Shown: positions 28,847 through 36,993 of the stretch, piece after piece
Position numbering within the stretch: the stretch's first letter is position 1
Layout of the letters: each line of letters starts with the position of its first letter
Assembly (NCBI GenBank): GCA_029261135.1
Contig: JAJDBX010000046.1
Span: 80,158-144,157, forward strand
Direction of reading: 5' to 3'
From: Nitrospirota bacterium
GTDB taxonomy: Bacteria; Nitrospirota; Nitrospiria; SBBL01; JAADHI01
DNA length: 64,000 nucleotides
Notes under the pieces: generated by a model
The model's input: the letters and a program-made list of their open reading frames with translations, nothing else
Told to the model about the DNA's origin: nothing
Databases searched by the model: none
Translations under genes and position numbers: made by a program

Positions 28847-28905
28847 AACAATTATGGCTTATTGACAGCAGATTAATAATCTGCTGTCAATAAGCCATAA
28901 TTGTT
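28847..28905. repeat. Perfect 59-nt palindrome (29-nt arms, 1-nt centre)
   Basis: aacaattatggcttattgacagcagatta-a-taatctgctgtcaataagccataattgtt. Confidence 0.97.
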
Positions 28906-29117: not shown

Positions 29118-29516
29118 TTAGCGGTTTTGAACCATGCGTTTTGTGCCATTCTCAAAGATAACTTCTACTTTGCTGCGGTTAATAACCGATGAAATAAAAC
29201 CGATGCCAAAAGTCGCATGCTCAATCATCTGATTGGCCTTAAAGTTCCCTTTTATACTATATTTTTTTGCACCGCTAAGACCACCCTCATCGACTTTCGC
29301 CATCAAAATCTGGTATTCCGATTTTTTTGTTTTTCGGGTACCCGGCGTTTTTTTCTCAGGTTCTTTTTCACGGTAGTTATGGTGTCCGTTACAAGTCTTA
29401 CACTTTACTTTTTTAGGAAGCGCATCAACCAGAGCAGAAATCGTATGATCCAACATTAATTTGCATTTTGTGCACCACGATACAATGTCTGTCCCAACTT
29501 CATAAGTATTTTCCAT
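29118..29516 (-). CDS. Conserved hypothetical protein with CxxC pairs (zinc-ribbon-like)
   Basis: WCTKCKLMLDHT...VKCKTCNGHHNYR two CxxC pairs, linker, C-terminal IEHATFGIGFISSVINRSKVEVIFENGTKRMVQ. Confidence 0.6.
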   Translation of the reverse strand: MENTYEVGTDIVSWCTKCKLMLDHTISALVDALPKKVKCKTCNGHHNYREKEPEKKTPGTRKTKKSEYQILMAKVDEGGLSGAKKYSIKGNFKANQMIEHATFGIGFISSVINRSKVEVIFENGTKRMVQNR

Positions 29517-29672: not shown

Positions 29673-32183
29673 TTAGCCATTATTTTCTGCTTCTTGAAGC
29701 ACTTCAATGAGCTGAGGGCCGTCAAACTGAAAAGGGTAGACAGGATCTTCGGCTTCCTTCCACGGATCTTTGTAAGCATCAACGGCCTCTTGCATTTTCG
29801 ATTCAAGATTCAAACAAATGCCCATATTATCGTCGATTAAAATTCCTTTGAGCAGGTCGATTCCGATGCGTTCAACAAATCCATAGGTTCGCTCTAAATA
29901 TTTTGCATGTTCCCGATAATATTCAAGAAAGCGACTCGTGTATTGAATCACGGCTTGAGGGTTGTCTACGGTACAGAGCAGATCTCCCTTTCGAATGGTG
30001 CTTCCTGCCGCACCACCGATGTAAATTTCCCATTGGCCCCCTTCGATCGCCACGACACCCACATCTTTAACCAAAGCTTCTGCACAATTTCGAGGGCAAC
30101 CCGTGACCGCCATTTTCACTTTATGAGGCGCTTCTACGCCTTGAAAACGCATTTCAATTTCTTTTGCCAGAGAGATCGAATCCCCCAGACCAAATCGGCA
30201 AAAATCAGTACCCACACAGCTTTTCACCGTACGAAAGGCCTTGGTATAGGCATGACCGCTCGGCAAACCGATGTCTTTCCAAATATTCGGGAGATCCTCT
30301 TTTTTGATTCCCAAGAGGTCGATCCGTTGTCCCCCGGTAAACTTCACCATTTTTGCTTTATATTTTACGGCGGCTTGCGCAATGCGAAGCAATTCTTCGG
30401 GCGTAGTTACGCCACCGATAATTCTGGGGACGACAGAAAAGGTCCCATCTTTTTGGATATTCGCATGCACGCGATCATTAATGAACCGTGCATCCCGTTC
30501 ATCTTCATATTCTTTCGGCCAAAGTGTTTTAAGCAGAGAGGCCAAGCCTGTCTTCGTGGTAGGATCTTCCTGTCCTCCCCCCAATGTCGCTAAGACCACA
30601 CTGACCGATTTTAAACCGTTGGAACGAATCTCACGAACAAGTTGTGATTTTTCAAAGGGAATACCTGGAACATAATAATGCTCACTGGCATCGTAGGATA
30701 CTTCTCCGACCACGGATTCTATGACCTGCGCAATAAATCCACGGCAGGAACCGCAACCCATGCCTGCCTTTGTTTTTGCCCCGACCGCAGCCACACTACT
30801 ACAATTTCCATTTTCTATGGCGGAAACAATCTCACCTTTACACACACCGTTACATCCACAAATTTGCGCCGAATCGGGTAAGTCTCCCGCATCCAGCAAT
30901 TTTGATCCATCAATAGAACCAAAAAGAATCTCTCCGCGATTTTCTGGGAGCTCTTTTTCGTTCATAAAAAGTTGCATGAGGCTGTCACTTAATCCAGTAT
31001 CCCCGAGTAAAATAGCCCCATGTATTTTATTTTCCCGTACAATCAGTTTTTTATAAATGCCCCGATTGGGATCACGATAAACAAGCACTTCGTCATCATT
31101 CTCATCTGTCTCTTTTTCTCCCATAGAGGCAAGATCAACCCCCATCACTTTTAACTTGGTGCCTGTTTTTGAACCGACATACCGTGTTTCCGAATTGACC
31201 CCGGTTAAAATATCGGCCATCACACCGACCTGCTGCCAGATGGGCTCAACCAGACCATAGGTTAAACCACGATGTTCAATACATTCTCCCACCGCAAAAA
31301 TATGAGGATCTTCTGTTCTCATTTGGTCATCACAAAGGATGCCTTTATTGGTTTTTAAACCACTCTTTTCAGCCACCTCAGTCATCGGAACAATGCCCGC
31401 ACTAATGACCACGATATCGGTCTCTAGAATTCCGCCATCCTTAAAAATGAGACGGGAAACCCGTCCATCCTTTGCGACAATTTGAGAAGTAAAGGTTTTC
31501 GTGAAAACGCGAAGTCCCATCGCACCCATCGCGCGTTCCAAGAGATTGGCCGATTCGAGATCCAGTTGAGAAGGCATGAGTTGGTCTGCGGCTTCGATGA
31601 CAGAAACTTCCAGGTCATGTGTCATGAGTCCCCGTGCGGCTTCAAGACCTAACAAGCCTCCACCAATAACCACTGCTTTCTGGCACCCTTTTGCATAATC
31701 TGCAATCTGATCACAGTCCTCTATCGTCCGGAATAAAAAAACACCAGGCAGTTCACTGCCTTTGATCCGTGGCACGAAGGGTCGTGAGCCTGTCGCAATA
31801 ATGAGCTCATCGTAAGGCACCTCAACAAAATGATCCCCATCAATCCCTTGAATCGCTTTATTGTAAGGAATGTCCTCGGCTGAGAGCTTCAGGGCAAAGA
31901 CTTTTTTCGACACTCTATCGATATGTGTCACCTTCATGCCGACATGCAGCGTAATATTATTTTCTTGATACCATTCCAGTGTATTTAGAAAAATCTCACT
32001 CGGACTTTGGGTCTGATTGAGGACATTGCTCAGCAAAATCCGGTTATAGTTTCCATAAGGCTCTGCGCCAAACATCAGAATATCGAAGGCCTCGGGGTCT
32101 CGTTTTAAAATTTCTTCCACCGCCCTCGCACCCGCCATCCCATTGCCGATAACAACAAGTCTTCTTTTCACATCCACTCCCAC
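29673..32183 (-). CDS. nirB: Nitrite reductase (NADH) large subunit
   Basis: FAD/NAD domain, BFD-like [2Fe-2S] CGCNGVCKGEI...GCGSCRG, sulfite/nitrite reductase motifs TGCPRNCAEALVKDVG. Confidence 0.95.
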   Translation of the reverse strand: MGVDVKRRLVVIGNGMAGARAVEEILKRDPEAFDILMFGAEPYGNYNRILLSNVLNQTQSPSEIFLNTLEWYQENNITLHVGMKVTHIDRVSKKVFALKLSAEDIPYNKAIQGIDGDHFVEVPYDELIIATGSRPFVPRIKGSELPGVFLFRTIEDCDQIADYAKGCQKAVVIGGGLLGLEAARGLMTHDLEVSVIEAADQLMPSQLDLESANLLERAMGAMGLRVFTKTFTSQIVAKDGRVSRLIFKDGGILETDIVVISAGIVPMTEVAEKSGLKTNKGILCDDQMRTEDPHIFAVGECIEHRGLTYGLVEPIWQQVGVMADILTGVNSETRYVGSKTGTKLKVMGVDLASMGEKETDENDDEVLVYRDPNRGIYKKLIVRENKIHGAILLGDTGLSDSLMQLFMNEKELPENRGEILFGSIDGSKLLDAGDLPDSAQICGCNGVCKGEIVSAIENGNCSSVAAVGAKTKAGMGCGSCRGFIAQVIESVVGEVSYDASEHYYVPGIPFEKSQLVREIRSNGLKSVSVVLATLGGGQEDPTTKTGLASLLKTLWPKEYEDERDARFINDRVHANIQKDGTFSVVPRIIGGVTTPEELLRIAQAAVKYKAKMVKFTGGQRIDLLGIKKEDLPNIWKDIGLPSGHAYTKAFRTVKSCVGTDFCRFGLGDSISLAKEIEMRFQGVEAPHKVKMAVTGCPRNCAEALVKDVGVVAIEGGQWEIYIGGAAGSTIRKGDLLCTVDNPQAVIQYTSRFLEYYREHAKYLERTYGFVERIGIDLLKGILIDDNMGICLNLESKMQEAVDAYKDPWKEAEDPVYPFQFDGPQLIEVLQEAENNG

Positions 32184-32216: not shown

Positions 32217-32558
32217 TTATAACACCACTAACTCTGGTGAAGTCGTACTATAGTCAATATAAAGTTCCCCGTTTTCAATCCATGCCGGGAAAGAACGAAC
32301 CGATTCATTTCTATCACAGCCTTTTCCCGTACTCAGATCAAATTGATGCCCATGTAAAGGGCAAACCACCTTCCCTTCGCCAATGATTCCTTCGGCAAGA
32401 GGGCCATTTGCATGTGGACACTTATTTTCAATCGCGCTCACTTCTCCCGCTCTTGATCGAAAAATGGCGATCTCTTCTCCTTCCACAGAAAAACTAAGGC
32501 CTTGCCCCATTGGGACGGCTTCTATTGATCCTAATTTCACTTTAAAGGGTTTATTCAT
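32217..32558 (-). CDS. nirD: Nitrite reductase small subunit, Rieske type
   Basis: CPHANGPLAEGIIGEGKVVCPLHGHQFDLSTG Rieske motif; directly upstream of nirB. Confidence 0.93.
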   Translation of the reverse strand: MNKPFKVKLGSIEAVPMGQGLSFSVEGEEIAIFRSRAGEVSAIENKCPHANGPLAEGIIGEGKVVCPLHGHQFDLSTGKGCDRNESVRSFPAWIENGELYIDYSTTSPELVVL

Positions 32559-32585
32559 GGTGATATCTCCAATGTTATATAAAAA

Positions 32586-32618
32586 AAGGCGCCTAGATCC
32601 ATTCGATCTAGGCGCCTT
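32586..32618 (-). terminator. Intrinsic terminator/attenuator in nirD leader
   Basis: Minus strand AAGGCGCCTAGAT-CGAATGG-ATCTAGGCGCCTTTTTTT, 13-bp perfect stem and U tract ending about 22 nt before nirD ATG. Confidence 0.9.
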
Positions 32619-32661
32619 TGCCTAAAATATCTGCTAGCGCTTCAACTCTCTTCTTAACTTA

Positions 32662-32677
32662 AGCAATCGACATACCA
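32662..32677 (-). promoter_or_regulatory. Sigma54-type -24/-12 promoter of nirDB
   Basis: Minus strand TGGTATGTCGATTGCT; GG and GC separated by exactly 10 nt. Confidence 0.8.
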
Positions 32678-32825
32678 AGAAGTGGAGTCAGGCACAAACA
32701 ATAAAAAACATAAATTTTTCAATATGTTAATGCACTATTCTGGGCTTCACCTCAAAACAAGTCAGCAAAACACCCAACATTATTGTCGTATACTGTACAA
32801 AAAGAGAGATGTATTTAAGGACAGC

Positions 32826-34682
32826 CTAATGGTCTTCGAAAAGAACACCCACTTGAGGCCGCTGGGCCAGTCCCGTTTTTCGTGCGAGATTTTCGAAGCT
32901 TTGGTTTCCCCAAAAGAAAGCACGGGGAACGGTCGTGGGAACAACCGAGACATAAAAGAGCGCACGGCCAATCACTTCATGCATAAGGGCAAGCAAGGTC
33001 ATCAAAATCCAGACCAGGAAGCCCGAATCGCTTACGGGAGGAAAAAAAGAAAACCAGAGGGCTAAAATAATGAGGACTATACTGCTGATCTTCCGGGCAC
33101 TTGTTGTTTTTCCAAAAACCTCTATCATCAACATCTGTGAGACCGCCGCCTCCTCTCCTTTTTTGTTCAAATAGCGAAGATGAGTATAAAGTGCCACGCG
33201 CTGAATAATTAATCCGAATAATAAAAAAAGCGCAAAAAGTGAAAGGAGAGGTCTTGTGTCACTGTCTTTCAAAAGACCCATTGTCGCGCTGACCAATCCA
33301 ATGATACTACTACCTAAGATCAATCCGCTCGAAAAAAAAGCCCCGCCAGAATGCCAATGATCCCAAAAAGGACGTGCCGGAATGCGATAACATCGGTACA
33401 TGCAATAAATCGCAAGTGGACCTAAAAGGGAGGCACTCCAGCCGAAAAGGGCAGGCAGTGGGTTTGAAATAAATTCCGGCAACCACGCGATGAGACCGGG
33501 GAAAATATTGACCACGCTATAGGCTGTGAGTAATCCATAAAATCCCCCCATCGCTGCAATTTCACGACTGACCCAAGAATGACGCAAGTTATTCATGGCG
33601 CGATAGAAATACTGAGGTTTCCCGAGGTGTAAAGTCGATAAAACCAGCGCGAAGGTTTGGAGGCCGATCAAGCTCAGCATTAAACCTGCCATCGTGACAG
33701 GATGGCTTTGAAATGAAAATAGAGAAGCGGCCGGCTCACGCCAAAGTGGGAACAGAAAAATAAAAAGAAAGGCGCCCACAACAAATTGAGAAATGAGTGT
33801 GAACAAAACAAGCGGATCTTCCCGCGACCGAAGCTTGTTCAAACCCCAAGTAATCTTTGAAGGATTCCCTTTTGCTTTGATTTTATAGGAGGATTGAGAC
33901 ACATCCATTTTTCCATCCGAATAATTCTCTTTGGAATTCTCTTTATGATAAGAGAGTGGAACATCATCTATTCTGTGGAATTCGTCTGGAAGACTTTGAT
34001 TAAGCTGAAATCGAATATTGGGCCTGGAGATGCTCGGGTCGGTAAAAGAAGGGATAGTCAGATCTGCTGTTTGCTGTTTTTGGGGAATCTCATCAATAAC
34101 ACCGAAATCCAGTGCGTTGCCAAGACAGGCATCCACACAGGCGGGCTGTAAACCGACTTCGAGCCGGTCAATACACATATTACATTTCTGGACTTGTCCT
34201 TTTTCTGTATCGAGCTGAGGCGCATTGTAGGGACAAACCCATGTACAATATCCACACCCAAAACAGATTTCTGGATCTTGGAGCACAGCGCCGTATTCTA
34301 AATATTTTGTATAGGCCCGTGTCGGACAGCCTTTCAGACAGACGGGATCTTCGCAGTGATTGCAGGCCATCGAAATATTGATGCGCGTGACATCAGGGTA
34401 GGTGCCGCCCTCAATGGCACCCACACGACGGTAGGCCATGTGAGGTGCCAGATCATTTTTTTCAGAACAGGCCGATTCACAGGCATGACAGGCGATACAG
34501 TTGTCTGCATTAAAGTGAAATCCATGTTGTTTGTATCGATTGGGATTTTTATGGTTATTTGAGCCACAAGAATGCGAATTGATCTCCAATGGCATGTCCG
34601 CCAAATTGGGGTAAAGGACATCCAGCGCGATCTCTGTCCCGTGCTGGCTTTGTTGAGGAATTTCAGTATTATTCTCATTCAT
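32826..34682 (-). CDS. Fused [4Fe-4S] ferredoxin (DmsB/NrfC-like) and DmsC-like membrane anchor
   Basis: CIACHACESAC, CNHCEDPVCLKGCP, CFGCGYCTWVCP, CNMCIDRLEVGLQPACVDAC four-cluster domain followed by a polytopic DmsC-like region in one 618 aa ORF. Confidence 0.88.
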   Translation of the reverse strand: MNENNTEIPQQSQHGTEIALDVLYPNLADMPLEINSHSCGSNNHKNPNRYKQHGFHFNADNCIACHACESACSEKNDLAPHMAYRRVGAIEGGTYPDVTRINISMACNHCEDPVCLKGCPTRAYTKYLEYGAVLQDPEICFGCGYCTWVCPYNAPQLDTEKGQVQKCNMCIDRLEVGLQPACVDACLGNALDFGVIDEIPQKQQTADLTIPSFTDPSISRPNIRFQLNQSLPDEFHRIDDVPLSYHKENSKENYSDGKMDVSQSSYKIKAKGNPSKITWGLNKLRSREDPLVLFTLISQFVVGAFLFIFLFPLWREPAASLFSFQSHPVTMAGLMLSLIGLQTFALVLSTLHLGKPQYFYRAMNNLRHSWVSREIAAMGGFYGLLTAYSVVNIFPGLIAWLPEFISNPLPALFGWSASLLGPLAIYCMYRCYRIPARPFWDHWHSGGAFFSSGLILGSSIIGLVSATMGLLKDSDTRPLLSLFALFLLFGLIIQRVALYTHLRYLNKKGEEAAVSQMLMIEVFGKTTSARKISSIVLIILALWFSFFPPVSDSGFLVWILMTLLALMHEVIGRALFYVSVVPTTVPRAFFWGNQSFENLARKTGLAQRPQVGVLFEDH

Positions 34683-34700: not shown

Positions 34701-36881
34701 TTAATAGCTCCGTAATTCCAGAAGACTTTTTTCTGCTTCATCTTGATCCATAAGTTTATCGATGCGAACGGTCGATTGTTTATAGGCCGGTTGCCTTGAA
34801 TAGGGGTCGAGTTCCCCTTTCACAAGCCGATTGACACAGTTGTAATAGTGCATCGGGATAAAAATAGCGTCCTCCGAGACCCTTTCCGTGAGCTGGGCCA
34901 GCACAATTGCTGATGATCGTCGGGAGATCACACGGACAAACTCCATCGCCTGAATACCCAATTTTTTTGCAGTTTTGGGATTAATCTCCATAAAAGGCGT
35001 TGGGCTGAATTTATTCAGATTTCCGATTTTTCCAGTTTTGGTTCGTGTATGCCAATGCTCAACGAGACGCCCGGTATTGAGCCAAAAGGGGTAATCTTCG
35101 TCAGGCATTTCATAATTTTCAACGAAAGGGAGAGGGATGAGTTTCGCTTTGCCATCCGGGAATTGAAATACACCATCAGCATAAATCCGTTGACTCCCGT
35201 TAATATTTTGTTCATTGCAAGGCCATTGAATGCCACGGTTTTTTTCGATTTTTTCGTAGCTCATTCCGGAATAATCACAAAGACGCCCTTTAGAAACGCT
35301 TCGCATTTCATCAAAAACCTCGGCTGGCGATTCCGCAAAGGTCATTCCTTTTGCCCGATCAAAACGCTTGGCTAGTTCAATAAAAATCCATAGATCCGGT
35401 TTCGCATCCCCTGGAGGTTCCACCACTTTTCGAACCACGTTCACACGCCGTTCTGTATTAGTAAAAACCCCTGTTTTTTCACCCCAAAGGGCAGCAGGAA
35501 GATACACATGGGCTGATTCCACCGTTTCAACATTGGCATAGGCATCTTGGACAACGAGAAATTCAAGTTGATTCAGTATTTTTCTAATCTTTGTGCTGTC
35601 GGGCATCGAAGTCATCGGATTGGTTCCAATCAGCCAAAGTCCTTTGATTTCACCCCGCTCAATGGCTGGGAAAATATCCGTCTCAGTCAACCCCCGTTTT
35701 TCAGGAAAGTGATGTGCTTCGACCCCCCAAAACTGAGAAGTAAAAGCGCGATCTTCTGCATTTTCGAGTAAACGATATCCAGGTAATCCCGAACAGGAAG
35801 AGAATTCTCGTGTGCCCATGGCATTGCACTGACCTGTAATCGAAAGGGACGTACCCCCGGGTTTACCGATATTTCCTGTGATTAAATTTAAATTATTAAT
35901 TGCGACGACACCGTCGGAGCCATGGGTCGACTGGTTAATGCCCATGGTCCAAATGGTCATGGCCGCGCCTGCATCGCCATAAATTCGCGCGACTTTCCGA
36001 ATCATCTTAGCGGAAATACCACAAACTTTTTCAGCCATTTCCGGGCTGTATTGGGCCACCAATGACCCAAATGCTTCGAATCCATTTGTGTGGAATTTAA
36101 TATAGTCTTGATCTGCCAAGCCTTCTTCTAAGATAACGTGAGCCATTGCATTGAGCAGAACCAAGTCTGTCCCAGGCTTGATTGGCAGGTGAATATCGGC
36201 CATTTGTGCAAACATCGTGACTCTGGGATCCACCACAATGATAGGAAAACGACGACGATCGTACGCTTCTTTTAAACGATAATAAATAATCGGGTGTTGT
36301 TCCGGTAAATTCGATCCGATAGCAAGCAGACATCCCGTATGCTCAAAATCATCATAACACCCTGGCGGGCCGTCACTGCCAAACGACCTCTTATAACCTG
36401 AGACAGCCGAAGCCATACAAAGGGTCGTATTCCCGTCATAGTTATTTGTTCGAATAACACCCCGAGCGAGCTTACCCAAGGTATAAAATTCTTCTGTATA
36501 GATCTGTCCTGTCGAAACAATGGCAAAGCTGTCGCGTCCGTATAAGGCTTGGATACGACCAATCTCACTGGCTGTTCTATTTAGGGCCTCATCCCAAGTG
36601 GTCTCGGTGAAAAGGTCTGGACGATCTTTACGAAGCAGTGGTGTTGTACCGCGATTCTCTGATTCAAAAACCTCATATTCATAGATCCCTTTCAAACAAA
36701 GCTTCCCTCGATTAACATCGGCATCAGCCACCCCCCGGGCGGTGACGGCCTTACCAGCCTGATTGACTCCAACTTCTATCGAGCAGCCTGTCGAGCAATA
36801 GCCACAGGTCGTATAAACCCATTTCTCAACGGGTTTTACCGGAAGTTGAATCTCATTTTTAAACCGTCGTCCAAATAACAT
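34701..36881 (-). CDS. Molybdopterin oxidoreductase, assimilatory nitrate reductase catalytic subunit (NasC/NarB-like)
   Basis: TTCGYCSTGCSIEVGV...GKLCLKG FeS motif, no evident Tat signal, clustered with nirBD. Confidence 0.88.
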   Translation of the reverse strand: MLFGRRFKNEIQLPVKPVEKWVYTTCGYCSTGCSIEVGVNQAGKAVTARGVADADVNRGKLCLKGIYEYEVFESENRGTTPLLRKDRPDLFTETTWDEALNRTASEIGRIQALYGRDSFAIVSTGQIYTEEFYTLGKLARGVIRTNNYDGNTTLCMASAVSGYKRSFGSDGPPGCYDDFEHTGCLLAIGSNLPEQHPIIYYRLKEAYDRRRFPIIVVDPRVTMFAQMADIHLPIKPGTDLVLLNAMAHVILEEGLADQDYIKFHTNGFEAFGSLVAQYSPEMAEKVCGISAKMIRKVARIYGDAGAAMTIWTMGINQSTHGSDGVVAINNLNLITGNIGKPGGTSLSITGQCNAMGTREFSSCSGLPGYRLLENAEDRAFTSQFWGVEAHHFPEKRGLTETDIFPAIERGEIKGLWLIGTNPMTSMPDSTKIRKILNQLEFLVVQDAYANVETVESAHVYLPAALWGEKTGVFTNTERRVNVVRKVVEPPGDAKPDLWIFIELAKRFDRAKGMTFAESPAEVFDEMRSVSKGRLCDYSGMSYEKIEKNRGIQWPCNEQNINGSQRIYADGVFQFPDGKAKLIPLPFVENYEMPDEDYPFWLNTGRLVEHWHTRTKTGKIGNLNKFSPTPFMEINPKTAKKLGIQAMEFVRVISRRSSAIVLAQLTERVSEDAIFIPMHYYNCVNRLVKGELDPYSRQPAYKQSTVRIDKLMDQDEAEKSLLELRSY

Positions 36882-36900
36882 ATGTACTCACCCATAAAAA

Positions 36901-36932
36901 AAGCGTCTAGACTAAAAAAATCTAGGCGCCTT
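36901..36932 (-). terminator. Intrinsic terminator/attenuator in nitrate reductase leader
   Basis: Minus strand AAGGCGCCTAGA-TTTTTTTAG-TCTAGACGCTTTTTTT (one C-A mismatch), followed within 20 nt by the start codon. Confidence 0.82.
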
Positions 36933-36936
36933 CGCC

Positions 36937-36964
36937 ATTCAACCCACATCCTTGTGTCTTGAAT
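36937..36964 (-). promoter_or_regulatory. Leader hairpin with A1/G4 hexaloop (ANTAR-target-like)
   Basis: Minus strand ATTCAAGACAC-AAGGAT-GTGGGTTGAAT: 3 bp, 2x2 internal loop, 6 bp, hexaloop AAGGAT. Confidence 0.55.
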
Positions 36965-36977
36965 ACTCTCCTAGTTA

Positions 36978-36993
36978 AGCAATCCATATGCCT
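36978..36993 (-). promoter_or_regulatory. Sigma54-type -24/-12 promoter of nitrate reductase operon
   Basis: Minus strand AGGCATATGGATTGCT; GG and GC separated by exactly 10 nt. Confidence 0.78.

Follow-up and report, generated by a model that had tools for sequence, protein, structure and literature searches.

A putative ANTAR-type transcription attenuator with a single hexaloop ahead of nirDB in an uncultivated Nitrospirota bacterium

The window, a 64,000-nt stretch of DNA, is part of contig C41 of genome G000, from an uncultivated Nitrospirota bacterium of the class Nitrospiria, and was compared with four sister species (G001 to G004). These congeners are Nitrospirota metagenome assemblies, and the order takes in Candidatus Manganitrophaceae. 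On the minus strand a gene for a NasC-like nitrate reductase is followed by one for an Fe-S/DmsC fusion protein, a 267-nt gap, nirD and nirB. The features of this region are:

34701..36881, minus strand: molybdopterin oxidoreductase, 726 aa, a NasC-like assimilatory nitrate reductase judged by context
32826..34682, minus strand: Fe-S/DmsC-type membrane-anchor fusion protein of 618 aa; its gene separates nasC from the nirD leader
32775..32788, minus strand: putative upstream activator site CGACAATAATGTTG, palindrome CGACA-N4-TGTCG with one mismatch, 111 nt 5' of the sigma54 GG
32662..32677, minus strand: sigma54-type promoter TGGTATGTCGATTGCT (GG-N10-GC)
32643..32648, minus strand: GAGTTG, at about +4 to +9 of the predicted transcript, identical in all three nirD leaders found (G000, G001 and G003)
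32607..32626, minus strand: P2-type antiterminator hairpin UUUAGGC-AAAGGC-GCCUAGA, 7 pairs including one G-U
32585..32619, minus strand: intrinsic terminator, whose stem has 12 pairs (GGCGCCTAGATC/GATCTAGGCGCC) and a further three A-U pairs, loop GAATG
32217..32558, minus strand: nirD-like Rieske subunit of an assimilatory nitrite reductase, 113 aa (TIGR02378, 8.7e-19, slightly under the cut-off)
29673..32183, minus strand: nirB, nitrite reductase large subunit, 836 aa, directly 3' of nirD (TIGR02374, 1e-250)

For the NasC-like protein, the choice among the Fdh, NasC and NapA family models was not decisive. Beyond nirB, an inverted repeat (28853-28899) that is perfect over 20 bp and has a short A/T loop lies between a GGDEF/EAL gene and the ORF at 29118, and scores as a terminator in both directions.

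An earlier note on this DNA had described a sigma54 site, a hexaloop hairpin and a terminator before nirD, and each was located on the minus strand as it had described. The promoter has the GG-N10-GC spacing with TTGC, and GG-N10-GC is kept ahead of nirD in G001 and G003. From its position, transcription would start near 32651. A copy of the upstream palindrome with at most two mismatches was found 110-114 nt from the sigma54 GG before nirD in G000, G001 and G003, and before nasC in G000, G002, G003 and G004. This suggested a candidate site of one enhancer-binding protein common to nirD and nasC. The nasC copy in the window is at 37103-37090, and the palindrome also occurs close to some other leaders.

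The hairpin agreed with the 7-bp stem that had been claimed, with one G-U pair and an A1/G4 hexaloop (TTTAGGC-AAAGGC-GCCTAGA, at 32626-32607; loop AAAGGC at 32619-32614). The terminator had been given a 13-bp stem; we found 12 pairs and three A-U pairs, so that the figure of 13 counts in one of the A-U pairs. Its run of seven T residues (32587-32581) ends 22 nt ahead of the nirD ATG (32558). The first 13 bases of the terminator 5' arm are the loop and 3' arm of P2. P2 and the terminator are therefore mutually exclusive, in the terminator/antiterminator geometry that had been proposed.

RNA folding, which had been put forward as a check, gave -7.6 kcal/mol for the P2 hairpin alone and -27.3 kcal/mol for the terminator alone. 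Termination would thus be expected as the default. The whole leader had a z of -4.75 against shuffled sequences. When the 5' flank was shuffled, the observed stem length was matched in 0.03% of the trials for G000, 1.2% for G001 (with a 4-pair stem) and 0.4% for G003. Among 22 terminators in the window and its flanks (about 100 kb of G000), only two carried an overlapping G4-hexaloop hairpin, those of nirD and nasC. Leader-peptide attenuation was rejected on inspection, as no start codon opens a plausible ORF between the predicted start and the terminator.

Strong terminators commonly end operons, and this one is located between two cistrons. It might accordingly do no more than end the transcript of nasC and the Fe-S/DmsC fusion gene, with no part in the regulation of nirD. 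This was judged highly improbable, since the terminator lies about 207 nt past the upstream stop codon, behind a conserved sigma54 site and with only 22 nt left to the start codon of nirD, and carries an exact conserved hairpin common to leaders elsewhere.

The nirD proteins of G001 and G003 are 64% and 63% identical, respectively, to that of G000. Their leaders contain GG-N10-GC, then TTTTAGGC-AAAGGC-GCCT, and then a strong terminator. The element TTTTAGGC-AAAGGC-GCCT is identical in the three species, while the flanking leader sequence has drifted. In G001, the terminator stem is altered on both sides (CCTTGATG/CATCAAGG) with pairing restored, and the P2 5' arm, which lies outside the terminator, is unchanged. 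The P2 stem of G001 consists of 4 pairs only, the fifth position being U.U. Orthologous leaders that kept the terminator and lost the hairpin, which the earlier note had named as evidence against its proposal, were not seen; G001 and G003 keep both. No nirD leader was found in G002 and G004, where nirD closely follows the upstream gene. The only further block of at least six identical positions in the alignment of the three leaders is GAGTTG, for which no pairing partner or role was found in them.

A related first leader had also been mentioned, and we took it to be that of nasC (36993-36900), which has a P1 hairpin. Its features are:

36978..36993, minus strand: sigma54-type site AGGCATATGGATTGCT
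36938..36963, minus strand: P1 hairpin, core CAC-AAGGAT-GTG, A1/G4 hexaloop at 36953-36948
36925..36936, minus strand: P2 hairpin GGC-GAAGGC-GCC, with G at loop positions 1 and 4
36900..36932, minus strand: terminator with one C.A mismatch, overlapping P2

In the nasC leaders of G000 to G004, P1 is placed 14 nt ahead of the P2 loop. The P1 loops (AAGGAT, AAGGAA, AAGGAC, AATGTC and AGCGTC) have A1 and G4 constant and are otherwise variable. These leaders are like that of nirD in the placing of P2 on the terminator, the GGC...GCC core, and the sigma54 site and palindrome (both absent in G001). They are unlike it in having P1 with A1/G4, and in a P2 loop that begins with G or U instead of A. No credible Rfam family was found at either leader at gathering or permissive thresholds.

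Across the class Nitrospiria, P2 (GGC-NANGGC-GCC) with a terminator was found before nasC, genes for a molybdopterin/P-II fusion, porin genes and a NifA-like activator gene, usually with P1 upstream. In G005, a P1-P2-terminator leader precedes a P-II gene alone. Matches in G000 (C77), G008 (C59), G012 (C120) and G065 were rejected, as they had no terminator, and no attenuator was found at the orthologous molybdopterin(/P-II) genes of G019, G028, G031, G034 and others. Covariation, also put forward as a check, was examined over this wider set of leaders. The GGC/GCC pairs of P2 are kept across 22 leaders, with two G-U exceptions at one pair. Covariation of P2 alone was weak (0.207 versus 0.142 in shuffles), as expected of a helix that is also constrained by the terminator. 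In the P1 stems of 14 leaders, 90.8% of the cells are paired versus 69.0% in shuffles, and two-sided changes occur at five of the seven pairs. The closing pairs A-U and C-G (AC/GU) and the loop G4 are invariant in these. Both the AC/GU closing pairs and the bases at loop positions 1 and 4 are needed by EutV (PMC3369931).

A covariance model, R1, was built from 12 leaders, and the nasC leader of G000 was in its training set, which applies to the values for that leader (E 7.7e-8 in its own genome; 43.9 bits, E 3.6e-9 in the window). The nirD leader scored 17.1 bits in the window, carried by P2. The search of the G000 genome gave nothing else convincing beyond the nasC leader. From these results the recognisable regulon of G000 was taken to be nasC and nirD. 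A 7-bp stem TAAATTC/GAATTTA before nirD of G001, with a loop starting AAGGAG, scored 24 bits with R1; it was taken as chance, because most of its 5' arm precedes the predicted start and neither G000 nor G003 has it.

The G000 genome has a single ANTAR-domain protein, 420 aa long, with the architecture GAF-GAF-ANTAR (E 2.8e-23). Its gene lies about 42 kb from the nirD leader and adjoins an oligoribonuclease-like gene, named from reading its sequence. A stand-alone sulfite-oxidase-like molybdopterin protein, also recognised by reading, is encoded nearby (L062:6343-7386).

The ANTAR domain aligns with those of Rv1626, EutV and NasR. In the numbering of PMC8934654, the EutV contacts R142, K143, K149, E160, M172, N173 and R175 are kept without change. 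K147 and Y164 have given way conservatively to R and F, respectively; R168 is replaced by Q and R177 by T. Pfam detected two GAF domains and no NIT domain, which sets the protein apart from NasR-type regulators. Of the GAF domains, the first is similar to the one in PtsP and the second to the one in NifA. GAF domains of the PtsP and NifA types read nitrogen status, and the signal here may likewise be nitrogen status more than nitrate. GAF-linked ANTAR proteins were uncharacterised as of 2012 (PMC3369931), and no later characterisation was found in the literature searched. Of 76 relatives searched, 59 have an ANTAR protein, one in each genome, and some of these genomes have none of the leaders; co-occurrence of the protein with the leaders is thus weak evidence.

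We interpreted the nirD leader as an ANTAR-type transcription attenuator, by which nirDB would be controlled through antitermination, and put the probability of this at 0.62. In the eutP leader of Enterococcus faecalis (regulator EutV), the nasF leader of Klebsiella (NasR) and the amiE leader of Pseudomonas (AmiR) (PMC3369931), the 3' arm of an A1/G4 P2 lies within the terminator 5' arm, as it does at nirD. A nitrogen-metabolism gene downstream and an ANTAR protein in the genome are common to them all. The nirD leader differs from these in having no P1 and in its phylum, and the regulator would be GAF-GAF-ANTAR instead of REC-ANTAR (EutV) or NIT-ANTAR (NasR). ANTAR antitermination over nitrate/nitrite assimilation, as proposed here, is also exerted by NasS-NasT at nas/nir genes of Proteobacteria (e.g. 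Paracoccus, PMC3795266); the sole ANTAR match in G000, in contrast, carries GAF domains and no receiver domain. Counted against the ANTAR reading were the missing nirD P1, the weak covariation of P2 alone, the 4-pair stem of G001, the leaderless nirD of G002 and G004, the distance of the ANTAR gene, and its presence in relatives that have none of the leaders.

From the analogy with these systems we infer ANTAR binding and antitermination at nirD, where a single hexaloop would suffice. An enhancer-binding protein at the upstream palindrome would fire the sigma54 promoter, from which a short leader would be transcribed. Unless the regulator intervenes, the very stable terminator would form, and RNA polymerase would halt ahead of nirDB. 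When active, the GAF-GAF-ANTAR protein would capture the AAAGGC hexaloop of P2 as it emerges from the polymerase. The captured P2 would keep the terminator's 5' arm from pairing, and nirD and nirB would be transcribed. At nasC this would be achieved through the customary pair of hairpins, at nirD through the P2 hexaloop alone. The inducing signal is probably nitrogen status or nitrate/nitrite.

P2 might instead be recognised by some other RNA-binding regulator or a ligand. Nothing direct was found in favour of this, no Rfam family reached the gathering score in the leader, and the loop, closing pairs, spacing in the companion leaders and terminator overlap all match ANTAR targets. We gave it almost no weight.

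The missing P1 bears on how an ANTAR-type attenuator would work at nirD. The earlier note had seen no convincing P1 with an A1/G4 loop before nirD, and our search gave the same picture: the P1 signature ACnnnGnnGT is absent from the nirD leaders of G000, G001 and G003, and none of them has a G4 hexaloop with a stem of at least 4 pairs between the predicted start and P2. The leader shares with dual-hexaloop ANTAR RNAs the A1/G4 hexaloop of P2, the terminator overlap, the ANTAR protein in the genome and, as a usual though not obligatory trait, nitrogen-metabolism genes (nirD and nirB) downstream. It does not have an upstream P1 at a short linker (roughly 2-25 nt between P1 and P2 in published sets), which the nasC leader does have. 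It falls outside the dual-hexaloop definition and is best described, from its sequence, as a single-hexaloop variant.

A P1 could still be hidden in the leader if it were weak and non-canonical, starting at the conserved GAGTTG after the predicted start, in which case the leader would be an ordinary dual-hairpin one. In each orthologue GAGTTG can take part in a weak hairpin, and weak mini-P1s occur in other leaders, such as those of the molybdopterin/P-II genes of G015 and G013. Against this, the loops (AAGCGC, GAAACG and TTGTT/GTTGTTC) have no common A1 or G4, the stems are rich in G-U, and a G4 hexaloop on a stem of at least 4 pairs is lacking in all three. We regarded a hidden P1 as quite unlikely.

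P1 is also lacking from the nasC leader of G006 and from the molybdopterin/P-II gene leaders of G007 and G016. The loop is exactly AAAGGC in all six P1-less leaders versus 3 of the 16 with P1 (P about 0.001, calculated by hand, uncorrected for kinship, and for an association partly biased by the search pattern). A loop that begins with G1, such as GAAGGC, can form a G-C pair across itself, as in the fold of the nasC leader; a loop with A1 cannot. It has been suggested that A1 may serve to hold the hexaloop open (PMC8934654).

The same comparison bears on whether the nirD leader is a relic of an ANTAR leader that once had both hairpins. After the loss of P1 it would now act as a fixed attenuator that keeps nirDB expression down, and the sigma54 promoter would be the sole point of control. 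In favour of this, the only system tested well needs P1, whose deletion abolished induction of eutP by EutV (PMC3369931), and the leader has been wholly lost in G002 and G004, leaving nirD directly after the upstream gene. A relic does not readily account for TTTTAGGC, which is identical in three species even though the P2 5' arm is outside the terminator and the 5' leader has otherwise drifted, nor for the AAAGGC loop of the P1-less leaders. We considered a relic unlikely.

The P1-less leaders (nirD, nasC of G006, molybdopterin/P-II of G007 and G016) may instead make up a naturally occurring class, ANTAR antiterminators with a single hexaloop, whose P2 alone would override the terminator by means of the GAF-GAF-ANTAR protein. 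We put this forward tentatively, at somewhat less than even odds. EutV shows similar affinities for the P1 and P2 hexaloops taken in isolation, and the definition of its minimal site has been changed to one hexaloop; in the EutV-RNA structure one hexaloop is contacted at a time, with G4 as the sole base-specific contact (PMC8934654). The nirD P2, which keeps A1 and G4, fits such a site in sequence, and most EutV contact residues are kept in the G000 ANTAR protein. The authors of the structure left open the extent to which single-hexaloop targets are used, and proposed them for cases in which no moving polymerase limits the time available (PMC8934654), whereas that of nirD would have to work co-transcriptionally.

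ANTAR antiterminators have been described as needing two hexaloops in vivo, and a P1-less leader overlapping a terminator bears on that. The nasC and nirD cluster, with one leader of each kind and apparently a common regulator, offers a natural setting in which to ask whether P1 can be dispensed with. ANTAR leaders before nitrite reductase and P-II genes are known from other bacteria (PMC3369931), so that the general idea has precedents. None was found, in the literature searched, for the phylum, for the GAF-GAF-ANTAR setting or for the P1-less form. The leaders suggested that Nitrospirota have an ANTAR regulon under the control of a GAF-GAF-ANTAR protein.

A GTDB-wide pattern scan gave 118 stretches, many of which look like chance terminators, and no distribution was drawn from it. 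Among the matches listed (80 of 118), stretches from Pseudomonas and Geobacteraceae look like ANTAR leaders with P1.

Several minor observations were made on the wider set of leaders. Genes in which a molybdopterin oxidoreductase domain (PF00174) is fused with a P-II domain (PF00543) mostly stand behind a sigma54/ANTAR-type leader (L124, L125, L127, L128 and L255-L264), and were not found in the window's own genus. The promoters showed turnover: before nasC of G001 the attenuator is kept and the sigma54 site is gone (L033), and before the P-II gene of G005 a sigma70-like site replaces sigma54 (L276).

Two P1-P2-terminator leaders in tandem were found before one BBP2 porin gene (L126 in G013, L130 in G015); the porin gene was seen in G013, and the G015 contig ends shortly after the leaders. 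An ANTAR-type leader was also found before a gene for a NifA-like AAA+ sigma54 activator, with an ANTAR gene on the same contig (L123 in G061, L315 in G041). This arrangement suggested a feed-forward loop in Nitrospiraceae-like genomes.
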